Assembly (NCBI RefSeq): GCF_025452235.1
Contig: NZ_CP104965.1
Location: 4,026,501-4,090,500, forward strand
Direction: 5' to 3'
Length of the DNA stretch: 64,000 nucleotides
DNA from: Devosia neptuniae
Lineage (GTDB): Bacteria; Pseudomonadota; Alphaproteobacteria; Rhizobiales; Devosiaceae
Shown piece by piece: positions 30,568 through 44,673 of the stretch. Every line of letters starts with the position of its first letter. Position 1 is the stretch's first letter. The notes below the pieces were generated by a model. The model saw only the letters and a program-made list of their open reading frames with translations. It had not been told where the DNA came from and did no database searches. A program made the position numbers and the translations under genes.

Positions 30568-31476
30568 TCAAGCCACGTGATGCGCCGTCCCCAGGCTCCC
30601 GGTCCCACCCGTCGCCTGCACCGATCGCGACCCTGCCTCAATCGCTGCAGCCAGGCACACATCCATCGCCGCGCCATCCAGCCAGGCATGCAAGAACCCG
30701 GCATTGAACGCGTCGCCGGCGCCCGTCGTATCCACCACCTCGACCGCTGGCGTAGAGCGCTGGATGACCTGCCCACCCATTGCCAGGATCGCACCATCGC
30801 CACCGCATTTGAGCGCCACCACCGGGAAATGCCGCGCCAGCCGCGCCAGTGCCTCCTCCGGCGCCTCGCAATGCGTCAGCGCCCGCGCCTCTTCCAGATT
30901 GGGCAGGAACACATCGACCCCGGCCGCGCGCTCGAAAAACATCGGGTCCTTGATCAGCTCGGCATCCCAGCTCGGATCGAGCGACACCGTCAGCCCACGC
31001 GTCTTGGCCGCTGCGACAGCCGTGGGGATTTCATGCAACGTGGCATATTCGGCAATGTGCAGATGCCCCGCCTCATTCCAGTCCAGCGCCTGATCAAACG
31101 TGGCCGGCAGAGCATGCCCCGCCCGCCGCGAGAGGAATGCGCGTTCTTCCTGCTGCACCATAACCACGGTCACCTGCGGTCCCGCCGATGGATGCCGGTC
31201 GAGAAACCGCAAATCGATGCCCAAAGCATCGATCTGCCCCTCCAGCGCGTTCGACACCGCATCGGTGCCGAAGCGGGCCAGCAGCACGGTTGAGCGGCCC
31301 AGCGCCACGGCATGCGCGGCCGTGATCAGGGCGCCGCCGCCGGGCGTGATGGTAAAATCCCGGGCGAACAGTTCGCGCCCGAGTTCGGGCATGGCGTCCA
31401 ATCCGTTGAACACCATGTCGCAATAAATGCGGCCCAGGCTCAGCATGGCCTGGCCGCGCGATTGTGTCGAAGTCAT
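30568..31476 (-). CDS. PfkB-family carbohydrate kinase
   Basis: Kinase of 302 residues. The PfkB signature DTTGAGDAFNAGFLHAWL is near residue 255, with the anion hole and catalytic Asp, and the N-terminal GGGALITAAHAVALG marks the substrate side. The family phosphorylates sugars, nucleosides or fructosamines. It is the last gene of the ROK-linked ABC operon, overlapping the ATPase gene by 4 bp, so its substrate is probably released by the lyase or deacetylase. The substrate is unknown. Confidence 0.85.
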   Translation of the reverse strand: MTSTQSRGQAMLSLGRIYCDMVFNGLDAMPELGRELFARDFTITPGGGALITAAHAVALGRSTVLLARFGTDAVSNALEGQIDALGIDLRFLDRHPSAGPQVTVVMVQQEERAFLSRRAGHALPATFDQALDWNEAGHLHIAEYATLHEIPTAVAAAKTRGLTVSLDPSWDAELIKDPMFFERAAGVDVFLPNLEEARALTHCEAPEEALARLARHFPVVALKCGGDGAILAMGGQVIQRSTPAVEVVDTTGAGDAFNAGFLHAWLDGAAMDVCLAAAIEAGSRSVQATGGTGSLGTAHHVA

Positions 31477-42165: not shown

Positions 42166-44673
42166 TCAGCGCCGCGCCGGCTGGGTCAGATTGGCCAGCA
42201 GGCGGAAGGCACCGGGAACCAGTTTGTCGAGCTGGTGATGCAATACCAGGCTCGTATGGGTATGCCGCCCCTGTCCGATCTCGGCCGAAAGCAGCGAGCC
42301 CGTCAGTGGCTCCTCGCCGGAATCACTCATGGAAAGCAATGGCTTATAGGCCTCATCCCATTCCGACGCGAAGTACAGCCCACGCTCCTTGTCCCAGTTC
42401 GACCAGTCCTCCTCGGTCAGGACATTGGGATAATTGAGCAGCGGGTGATCCGCCTCCAGCACCGTCACGACGGCATTGGCATCGGTCACCCGATAGCGGA
42501 TCGAGGGCGAACCGATCTTGAGGAAAGCCGGCGGCACCGCCTCCGGATCCCAGCCATCGGAGGGCCGATGATAGAGCGTCACCAGATGCCCACCATTGTT
42601 CACCCATTCATGGATTCCCGGCAGCGCCGCAACCAGATCGGGCCGTTTGCCGAAGGCAAAGATGCCGACAACCAGGGTATCAAGGTCGCGATAGGCCCCG
42701 GCCTCGATATCGCCCGGCGCCAGTTCGGTCAGGTCGACGCCAAGGCGGCGCAGCCAGATATGAACATTGTCATTGCCACCGCTGACATAGCCGACCTTGG
42801 TATTTTCCGGCAGCGCCGCGCCAACCGATTGCACCGGCACCGACACCAGCGTCGGCACCACCGATTTGCCGATATGCGGATAGGAGAAAGTGTTGATCGC
42901 ATAAGCCGGTTCACCCAGCAGGACCGGCTCGATCGCGATACGAGTCGTGCCCAGATCGGCTGGCGGTGCTAGCTCGAAAGTGCCAGCTTCCCGGCCAGTT
43001 TCGCCAGTCGGCAGCAGCGACCAGCCATCGGGCAGGTCGAAGGTCAGATCGTCCGTCGTGGCATTGGCGACCACGGCAGTCATCTCCACCGGAGCGATGT
43101 CCCGCTCGGTATTGAACACCACCGCGTCGGGCTTGAGCTCAAGCGAAGCGGCCGGAATGACGCGCAGCGCATCTTCCAGGTCGATGTCGAGCACGGTGGT
43201 CCGCCCGCCGATTTCAGCGGTCAGCCGCACAAAGGCATCGCCATTGCCGCCCAGCGGATCGAACTGCTCAGTCAAAGGGTTAGTCAGTGCAGCATCGGCA
43301 GCGGCAGTGACCAACTCGCCCTCCTCGCCGGCCTTGCTGCTCAGCCCGTCGCGGCCAATAACCGCCACGGATTGCACCACGACATCATCGGGCGCATCGA
43401 CATCGGTCTTGACCAGAACCTCCTGCCCGGGCCGCAGATCGGCACCATCGGTATAGGCGCGAACCTGCATGCCGGCGGCGGTGGCGAGCACCAGGTCGAT
43501 CTCCTTGACCTTGCGATCAAGGCGATGGGCGACGCTATCGACCAACTCCGCGGGCAATTGCGCACGGGCCGCGTCGATCGCAGCGCCGATCTCGATCACC
43601 TTGGCGACCACGGCTTTGGGATCGCCGTAATCGGCAATGGCTTCCTCGATCAGCCCCTGGGCATTGCGTAGCGCATCGGCAGCCGAAGCAGGCATGCCGT
43701 CGAGTTCGGCGATGTGACCGACCGTGGCGATCAGCCCGTCGCGAATGTCATTTTCCTGCGTCGGGGCTTCGCCTTCGGCAACGCGCGACAGGTTGAGCTG
43801 CCATTCGGTTTGCGGATCGGGCCGCCAGGTGCCCATGCCCTGGGTCAGGTGGCAGGAGCGTGACCATTCGCCCATCTGCGGGAAGGTCGCGCCGGAAATC
43901 GGGTCACGCGCCGGCGCCTTGACCACGAGTGTCGTCGGCGGGGGCGGAATTTCGTCGTCATAGACGCCGCCACCACCGCCATAGGCTGGCAGGTAGATTT
44001 TTGGCACATTCCAGGGCTTGAGGCCGGCCGCGATCTGTTCGGGGAATTCTTCTTCATTGCCGGAAATGTCGGCCGTGATGAAGGTCGCCACGGTGGCAGC
44101 GCGGTGCTGGCCATGCTGGCCCGGCACGTCGAGGAAGCAGTTCATCACCACGTCGGGCTTGTACTGGCGGAACGCCCAGGTCATGCGCTCGATAACGCGG
44201 TCGCGGCCCCAGCGGGCAATGGTGGCATTGGGGTCTTTGGAGAAACCAAAATCATGCACGCTGTCATTATGCCCACGACCGCCAAAGGCGAGCGAAGCAT
44301 CGAGCGAGCGCGAGGCTTCCTGCATTTCGCGGGTGCGCAGCACGCCGAGCACCGAGCCGCGTTCCGGCCCGATGCTGTTCTGCCCGCCCTCCCCGCGCGT
44401 GATGCAATAGAGCACCGGGCGGATGCCATAGACATGGCGCAAAGCGGCCAAGAGGCCACTGGGTTCGTCATCGGGATGGGCGCCCGTGGTCATAAAGGTG
44501 ACGGTCGAAGTCAGGCGCTCAAGCTGGCGATAGAGTTTGACGATTGCCGGTTCGCCCTTCTGGCTCGCAATCAAATCCAGATCCGATGCGGGCGCGGCCC
44601 AGGCCGGTATTTGCGTGGCCGCCAGCAATGGGGGCACCGATGCGACAAAAGTTCGCCGGCTCATTCGCGTCAT
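42166..44673 (-). CDS. Large PIG-L family deacetylase, Tat-exported copy
   Basis: Protein of 835 residues. MTRMSRRTFVASVPPLLAATQIPAWA is a Tat signal peptide (SRRTF) followed by a signal peptidase site near AWAAP. The PIG-L zinc motif AHPDDE is at 65-70 and GQHGQHRAA follows near residue 190. The C-terminal region parallels the cytoplasmic copy, including a nearly identical ending (WDKERGLYFASEWD and HTHTSLVLHHQLDKLVPGAFR). The two are therefore paralogues acting on either side of the membrane. It shares a promoter motif with the ROK divergent region. Confidence 0.85.
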   Translation of the reverse strand: MTRMSRRTFVASVPPLLAATQIPAWAAPASDLDLIASQKGEPAIVKLYRQLERLTSTVTFMTTGAHPDDEPSGLLAALRHVYGIRPVLYCITRGEGGQNSIGPERGSVLGVLRTREMQEASRSLDASLAFGGRGHNDSVHDFGFSKDPNATIARWGRDRVIERMTWAFRQYKPDVVMNCFLDVPGQHGQHRAATVATFITADISGNEEEFPEQIAAGLKPWNVPKIYLPAYGGGGGVYDDEIPPPPTTLVVKAPARDPISGATFPQMGEWSRSCHLTQGMGTWRPDPQTEWQLNLSRVAEGEAPTQENDIRDGLIATVGHIAELDGMPASAADALRNAQGLIEEAIADYGDPKAVVAKVIEIGAAIDAARAQLPAELVDSVAHRLDRKVKEIDLVLATAAGMQVRAYTDGADLRPGQEVLVKTDVDAPDDVVVQSVAVIGRDGLSSKAGEEGELVTAAADAALTNPLTEQFDPLGGNGDAFVRLTAEIGGRTTVLDIDLEDALRVIPAASLELKPDAVVFNTERDIAPVEMTAVVANATTDDLTFDLPDGWSLLPTGETGREAGTFELAPPADLGTTRIAIEPVLLGEPAYAINTFSYPHIGKSVVPTLVSVPVQSVGAALPENTKVGYVSGGNDNVHIWLRRLGVDLTELAPGDIEAGAYRDLDTLVVGIFAFGKRPDLVAALPGIHEWVNNGGHLVTLYHRPSDGWDPEAVPPAFLKIGSPSIRYRVTDANAVVTVLEADHPLLNYPNVLTEEDWSNWDKERGLYFASEWDEAYKPLLSMSDSGEEPLTGSLLSAEIGQGRHTHTSLVLHHQLDKLVPGAFRLLANLTQPARR

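Follow-up and report, generated by a model that had tools for sequence, protein, structure and literature searches.

A transporter-linked lyase and PIG-L locus of Devosia neptuniae as a candidate scavenging pathway for bacillithiol-type glucosaminyl-malate glycosides

Which compound is imported and degraded by the genes found between positions 30568 and 44673 of a 64,000-nucleotide stretch of the Devosia neptuniae genome (contig NZ_CP104965.1, positions 4,026,501 to 4,090,500; hereafter the window)? The locus combines a complete CUT1 ABC importer, i.e. a periplasmic solute-binding protein (SBP), two permeases and a UgpC/MalK-type ATPase according to Pfam and NCBIfam, with a lyase of the argininosuccinate lyase (ASL) superfamily, a PfkB-family kinase, a ROK-family protein, two long PIG-L proteins and a SolA-type oxidase. 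On the basis of sequence comparisons, it is probably a scavenging pathway for bacillithiol-type glucosaminyl-malate glycosides, namely cysteinyl-glucosaminyl-malate (Cys-GlcN-malate), its conjugates, or N-acetylglucosaminyl-malate (GlcNAc-malate). We lean, with less assurance, towards a narrower proposal: bacillithiol (with the oxidase, N-methyl-bacillithiol) would be catabolised through an ASL-superfamily glycosyl-malate lyase acting by beta-elimination, serving turnover in producers and carbon, nitrogen and sulfur scavenging in non-producers.

The original prediction had described a system for uptake and degradation that includes a ROK gene, a description that the present results support. 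Its ten genes were all recovered where it had placed them, the open reading frame (ORF) list and the profile scans giving matching Pfam/NCBIfam assignments throughout. The features are:

30568..31476, minus strand: PfkB-family sugar kinase, proposed glucosamine kinase (PF00294, 131.7 bits)
31473..32537, minus strand: CUT1 ABC transporter ATPase, UgpC/MalK type (NF008653, 464.4 bits, cut-off 432)
32537..34045, minus strand: ASL-superfamily lyase, proposed glucosaminyl-malate (glycosyl-malate) lyase (PF00206; TIGR00838)
34049..34903, minus strand: CUT1 permease, UgpE/MalG type (PF00528; closest NCBIfam models)
34900..35832, minus strand: CUT1 permease, UgpA/MalF type (PF00528; closest NCBIfam models)
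35844..37091, minus strand: periplasmic SBP (PF13416/PF01547)
37092..37287, no strand: divergent intergenic region between the importer operon and the ROK gene, presumed control region (from gene layout only)
37288..38517, plus strand: ROK-family protein of 409 amino acids, probably a regulator (PF00480, 122.3 bits; NagC/Mlc-type models)
38537..40912, plus strand: long PIG-L amidohydrolase A, 791 amino acids (PIG-L domain, helical/beta part, GATase1-like C-terminus)
40909..42084, plus strand: SolA/N-methyl-tryptophan-oxidase-type FAD oxidase, accessory (NF008425, 420.1 bits, cut-off 257)
42166..44673, minus strand: long PIG-L paralogue B with a twin-arginine-like N-terminus, probably exported (PF02585, 48.3 bits)

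Genes of the importer operon (SBP, permeases, lyase, ATPase and PfkB) overlap or nearly so throughout, and the ROK, PIG-L A and oxidase genes are divergent from it. The SBP start at 37091 was deduced from a signal-like N-terminus, the longest ORF beginning at 37199; PIG-L A was taken to start at the ATG at 38537, a longer TTG ORF overlapping the ROK gene. The kinase-type DxGGT motif was not found in the window ROK protein, and the PDB relatives of the SBP were broad sugar binders giving no pointer to a ligand.

Bacillithiol is described, in the available text of PMC4360819, as Cys-GlcN-malate built by BshA, BshB and BshC, its conjugates being opened by the PIG-L-type amidase Bca, and malate is named as its aglycone in that of PMC4065351. 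A review (PMC4101496) has, in the portion consulted, the LmbE-like (PIG-L) enzymes identified by 2014 acting on N-acetylglucosamine cores, and Mca and Bca on N-acylglucosamine cores; it uses neither the word lyase nor the word malate. According to our proposal, the CUT1 importer would take up an anionic glycoside, and the PIG-L enzymes, one cytosolic and one probably exported, would hydrolyse the amide on the glucosamine nitrogen, leaving cysteine or acetate and glucosaminyl-malate (GlcN-malate). In the ASL superfamily, a proton leaves C3 of the succinyl unit, the C2 substituent departs and fumarate is formed; with a glycosyl-oxygen as the C2 substituent, elimination would give glucosamine and fumarate. 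The window lyase would thus take the proton off malyl C3 and expel the sugar from C2, in analogy to fumarase expelling water and ArgH expelling arginine. The PfkB kinase would then convert glucosamine to glucosamine-6-phosphate, and a deaminase would convert the latter to fructose-6-phosphate, a role for which sister operons offer NagB and the Devosia genome a NagB-II-like gene outside the locus. The sugar would be sensed by the ROK protein. As for the SolA-type oxidase, it may process a modified cysteine, e.g. N-methyl-cysteine from N-methyl-bacillithiol.

The central enzyme of this scheme resembles ArgH in superfamily, catalytic residues and size, and could be read as an additional argininosuccinate lyase within a transporter operon unrelated to it. 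Indeed, it passes the ArgH model TIGR00838, albeit narrowly (297.4-297.6 bits vs. a cut-off of 279.5), and its relatives in L003, L004, L012 and other plasmid records are publicly annotated as argH. However, the same genome carries a separate, true ArgH (615.3 bits), and 20 of the 22 carrier genomes searched, the Devosia genome included, have a separate ArgH scoring 500 bits or more. The exceptions are G181, with no match at E <= 1e-100, and G161, whose sole match is its own lyase (338.8 bits). Concerning this latter strain, Oceanobacillus luteolus (locus L088), the sole ArgH-model match at that threshold is a pathway-type lyase, and arginine synthesis may be missing or misassigned there.

An alignment of 104 lyases and 23 ArgH proteins, in window numbering, showed that the catalytic residues S112, R113, N114, T159, H160, S281, S282, K287 and N289 are common to both groups, the SSxMPxKxN loop and the TH and SRN motifs being kept in at least 95% of each. 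The ArgH segment with a tyrosine (91% of the 23 ArgH) is turned into H315-N316-x-P318-F319-x-D321-x-x-D324 in the lyases, where D321 replaces the tyrosine in 104 of 104 sequences; D324 is common to lyases and ArgH. Other ArgH-conserved positions are also altered: K308 becomes H315 (97%) and H82 becomes F88 (92%). In ArgH, the segment rebuilt here would hold the arginine side, a role also ascribed to the conserved Tyr, Lys and His. Because of the separate ArgH (615 vs. 297 bits) and of the conserved segment rebuilt in 104 relatives, the window lyase is an ASL-superfamily member other than the arginine enzyme of its genome, which also settles the concern that it might be the sole ArgH. Its genomic context (ABC importer, PIG-L, kinase) sets it further apart. 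The second-ArgH explanation is rejected on these grounds as hardly credible, and the argH naming of its relatives in the above records is likely a misannotation. A Cereibacter lyase (L013, 32.1% identity) was set aside; it lies in another context and scores best as ArgH. In a Gordonibacillus locus (L110, 9681-11185), the lyase reads as two overlapping frames.

The gene families of the locus were found together well beyond Devosia. A GTDB genome scan with a Deinococcus-first lyase alignment confirmed at least 587 loci, the best 80 of which were analysed: 36 have a long PIG-L, 37 any PIG-L (all within 5.4 kb), 28 a kinase and 48 either one. Among the 51 loci of at least 19 kb, the corresponding figures for any PIG-L, a kinase and either one are 29, 24 and 37. 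Some reference sequences derive from counted loci, but the window and plasmid references alone give the same 36/80 for the long PIG-L; the kinase count of 28 includes weak or distant matches to PfkB (L055, L064, L075) and BadF (L105), each with another adjacent kinase. As a control, 20 true argH genes from carrier genomes were inspected together with their surroundings (up to 20 kb); PIG-L, kinase, deaminase and SBP genes were found at 0/20, the broad ABC-ATPase class at 10, a fused permease at two and a DMT-family transporter at one. Recurrence of the gene set across phyla therefore exceeds chance, in agreement with the co-occurrence that the original prediction had expected.

At the plasmid level, 31 records matched PIG-L B by tblastn; the match spans at least 80% of the protein in 21, all of which also have the lyase within about 8 kb. 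Among 14 plasmid loci, picked rather than drawn at random, those of three Deinococcus plasmids comprise, in a single run, the genes for ROK, lyase, long and short PIG-L, SBP, permeases and PfkB kinase, and a fourth (L015) has the lyase and importer only. As a whole, lyase and long PIG-L occur together in alpha- and gammaproteobacteria, Deinococcus, Bacilli and Acidobacteria. The transporter varies, with CUT1 systems, SBP_bac_6 with a fused permease (Bacilli), a sodium/solute symporter (L074) or an amino-acid permease (L059), so that the core seems to consist of lyase and PIG-L, with an interchangeable transporter.

In the order to which the window belongs, the lyase was found at E <= 1e-120 in 14 of 150 genomes, its own included. 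Twelve of the 13 other neighbourhoods were counted (L022, a 3 kb contig, was left out) and eight of them have a long PIG-L; an initial kinase count of 6/12 was revised to four PfkB and two unsure cases, since the ROK proteins of L042, L043 and L117 carry a helix-turn-helix (HTH) domain and may be regulators. In the genus, 24 of 49 genomes have the lyase. Of the 23 other carriers, 20 were read (all but G341, G363 and G365), with a ROK gene in 20/20 neighbourhoods, PfkB in 18 and PIG-L B in 12.

Three further neighbourhoods can be mentioned. A short PIG-L fragment, apparently a decayed gene, lies near the lyase of Neobacillus vireti (L091, 8895-9239); in Paenibacillus sp. yr247, long PIG-L and lyase are separated by a creatininase-family amidohydrolase (L073, 9178-9960; PF02633, 143 bits); and nadA, L-aspartate oxidase and nadC genes follow the lyase operon of Terrarubrum (L010, 12717-16101), where a link through fumarate is conceivable.

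The nature of the released sugar is suggested by the sister operons, whose sugar kinases belong to three families and whose glucosamine-6-phosphate deaminases are of two kinds. One operon of Paroceanicella (L012), without PIG-L, combines the importer and the lyase with NagB (242.1 bits, cut-off 236.9) and a ROK protein of the kinase type, which has DVGGT and in which no HTH was found. In Roseomonas (L009), a ROK kinase of 299 amino acids is accompanied by a SIS protein resembling NagB-II, whose 313.4 bits are under the cut-off of 430. In Bacilli, 11 loci have a BadF-type kinase gene that overlaps the lyase gene or directly adjoins it; the three proteins scanned score 150, 126 and 154 bits with PF01869, and the single one compared with PDB has as best match the N-acetylmuramic acid (MurNAc)/GlcNAc kinase 8zo3 (144.5 bits). 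Within the window's genus, NagB stands directly behind PfkB in 6/20 neighbourhoods, the two of these six that were scanned giving 245.3 and 226.6 bits, the latter just under the cut-off of 236.9; no deaminase gene was found next to PfkB among the window ORFs scanned. As different enzyme families fill the same two slots, kinase and deaminase, the released sugar is presumably glucosamine, and the L012 and L009 operons, with no PIG-L nearby (the rest of these genomes was not searched), suggest that the lyase frees it.

This bears on two other explanations. In one, the locus would repair or use succinated thiols: PIG-L would cut S-(2-succinyl)bacillithiol and the lyase would take fumarate off the sulfur of S-(2-succinyl)cysteine. 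Fumarate is known to succinate cysteine thiols (PMC5270733, available text), ASL-family enzymes can work at sulfur, the window lyase scoring 194.5 bits with the XcbC model and 71.9 bits with the XcbD model (each well short of the cut-off), and the bshC linkage reported below fits equally well. This reaction, however, releases no glucosamine, and the explanation is improbable in view of the L012 and L009 operons.

In the other, the substrate would be an Amadori compound, ethylenediaminedisuccinate (EDDS), aspergillomarasmine or another N-succinyl amine. The lyase matches PDB 6rx8 and 6g3d (167.1 and 163.6 bits), listed as argininosuccinate lyase and presumably EDDS lyase, i.e. an ASL-family enzyme likewise recruited for the catabolism of a succinyl compound, and the locus has a SolA-type oxidase and a PfkB kinase. 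EDDS lyase nevertheless acts on a C-N substrate, and the HN-P-F-x-D-x-x-D segment of the window family is absent from the 6g3d and 6rx8 alignments. Moreover, the NagB/NagB-II-like genes of sister operons, the bshC linkage, the lack of SolA conservation and the absence of an obvious need for PIG-L make such a substrate very improbable. Thus, the idea of one substrate that joins an N-acyl bond and a succinyl-type unit to a sugar is supported, whereas Amadori compounds and EDDS find no support, given the deaminases and the bshC/bshA linkage.

Together with the kinases and deaminases, the linkage of the lyase to bshC and bshA in Acidobacteria points to an O-linked glucosaminyl-malate. On one acidobacterial contig (L051), the gene order is BshA (496.7 bits, cut-off 273.7), long PIG-L, lyase and a convergent BshC (431.5 bits, cut-off 265.8). 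Among 120 genomes of this order, the lyase is present in 74, and 111 have BshC, over cut-off in 110. Both genes share a contig, at most 1.5 kb apart and always convergent, in 19 of the 74 lyase genomes; these 19 are related and are thus not independent events. As for the other 55, BshC lies on another contig in 50 and megabases away in two, and three gave no match to it. Sixteen of the 19 adjacent loci were read (14 fetched, plus L051 and L117; G226, G245 and G254 were left out): the lyase is touched by a long PIG-L in six (L051, L212, L213, L214, L216, L225) and by a ROK gene in five (L117, L215, L217, L218, L219), the one ROK protein scanned, that of L117, having an HTH domain. The L117 metagenome-assembled genome (G187), labelled Acidimicrobiia, belongs to the order that was sampled around G165, an acidobacterial genome, so its label is probably wrong. 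At L059, BshC is about 9 kb from the lyase.

At the genome level, BshA was over cut-off in 17 of 39 carriers (14/14 Bacilli and three Acidobacteria), and BshC in 20 of the 24 carriers labelled Acidobacteria, Acidimicrobiia, Deinococcales/Trueperaceae or gammaproteobacteria, two gammaproteobacterial genomes being without it. No BshC match was found in the 28 other carriers, which include the same two gammaproteobacteria and the Devosia genome; 25 of these 28 have a CUT1-type SBP at the lyase locus, and the two gammaproteobacterial loci have a sodium/solute-symporter-like gene (L074 by scan, L086 by its similar N-terminus). Carriers are thus likely split into producers and non-producers. In the Devosia genome, BshC gave no match and BshA none over cut-off, and a bacillithiol-making role in this strain was rejected accordingly.

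Several observations weigh against the bacillithiol-type proposal. Neither PIG-L nor kinase was found at 32/80 loci (14/51 of those of at least 19 kb), and 2/12 loci of the window's order have no recognised partner. Tight bshC linkage is limited to one order, where 50 of the 71 genomes with both genes have them on different contigs and two megabases apart, and BshA stands beside the lyase only once; acidobacterial BshA/BshC were found by tblastn in 3/107 neighbourhoods, none of them from Bacilli. Importers do not mark non-producers, as the Bacilli, with BshA in all 14 searched, have them as well. The Devosia genome lacks a NagB over cut-off (112.1 bits), its only deaminase candidate being the NagB-II-like gene elsewhere (308 bits, cut-off 430), and the additional beta and GATase-like domains of long PIG-L are unexplained for a small substrate. 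Finally, when the L051 lyase was compared with four reference lyases, that of the window among them, even the nearest shared only about 40% identity with it, which makes a shared substrate an extrapolation.

This last point, along with the variation of transporters by phylum, would fit the same chemistry on another substrate, the alphaproteobacteria importing a different glucosamine-O-malate or N-acyl-glucosaminyl-malate. We know of no such compound besides bacillithiol, GlcN-malate and GlcNAc-malate, and bacillithiol derivatives are called the most widespread bacterial thiols in the title of PMC6282198; we regard this alternative as unlikely and retain the bacillithiol-type glycosides.

The two long PIG-L proteins are the only members of the family found by a search of the Devosia genome. 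The PIG-L/LmbE fold and the HPDD metal motif with a later histidine are present. By eye, no signal was seen in PIG-L A, and a twin-arginine-like SRRTF was spotted close to the N-terminus of PIG-L B. Structure comparison gave MshB as best match of the PIG-L domain; the VIA-align listing contained no Bca structure, which excludes nothing. Searching PDB by sequence with long PIG-L returned zero matches. PIG-L A is under the Mca family cut-off (40.4 vs. 277.15 bits) and PIG-L B has no match to it. Short PIG-L proteins of the Deinococcus loci fit the MshB model best (146.9 and 160.6 bits, cut-off 224.35), and one Bacilli long PIG-L carries NEW3 domains.

The oxidase, although well over its curated SolA family score, is accessory and not core. 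It was found in 7/20 genus neighbourhoods (a DMT-family transporter in 9/20), with the order PIG-L A, DMT, SolA, PIG-L B in L194, L195 and L198, and in 1/80 wider loci as a weak match (L122, E 1e-10), with no recurrence at 1e-30. In N-methyl-bacillithiol, the methylated position is the cysteine amine (PMC6336425, available text), and nmbA is reported in about one third of bacillithiol-positive Acidobacteria and in some Paenibacillus (PMC6282198, in part). Speculatively, the oxidase might act on N-methyl-cysteine, e.g. from this thiol, a product that an N-methyl amino acid oxidase fits.

Compared with known systems, the locus shares with bacillithiol biosynthesis and Bca the PIG-L fold, a presumed glucosamine-amide chemistry and presumably the molecule, besides the linkage of related lyases to bshC and once to bshA. 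It would nonetheless run towards breakdown, adds lyase, importer and sugar kinase, has long multi-domain PIG-L proteins and lies in a genome without bshC. Mycothiol Mca/MshB is alike in the MshB matches given above and differs by an inositol aglycone and no lyase step. Amino-sugar catabolism relies on NagB and a hexosamine kinase, and MurNAc is used through MurK/MurQ. Here too, an amino sugar loses a carboxylate side group by elimination, kinase and deaminase acting afterwards, and one Bacilli kinase resembles 8zo3; our proposal differs by malate instead of lactate, a non-phosphorylated sugar and an ASL-family instead of a SIS-family lyase.

Among the open-licence PMC papers listed, neither breakdown of the bacillithiol backbone nor a PIG-L/ASL/ROK locus was found in titles and opening abstract lines, the material covering the making and use of bacillithiol and not the breakdown of its glucosaminyl-malate backbone. 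If the proposal is right, a glycosyl-malate lyase would be a new way of cutting a glycoside, argininosuccinate lyase annotations would be corrected in many genomes, and thiol exchange between bacteria would be suggested. Compounds for testing the prediction already exist from bacillithiol research.

Around the locus, the window holds other sugar-type transport genes. A separate CUT1-type locus at 45473-49639 comprises a GH32-like ORF (PF00251, 59.2 bits) and two permeases, with an Rrf2 regulator ahead of it (44870-45319). Upstream, a further sugar-type ABC permease and ATPase pair lies at 25694-27679; the ORFs at 27683-28807 and 29018-29692 have no Pfam match, and that at 29760-30422 has a weak Aspzincin M35 match, below cut-off.

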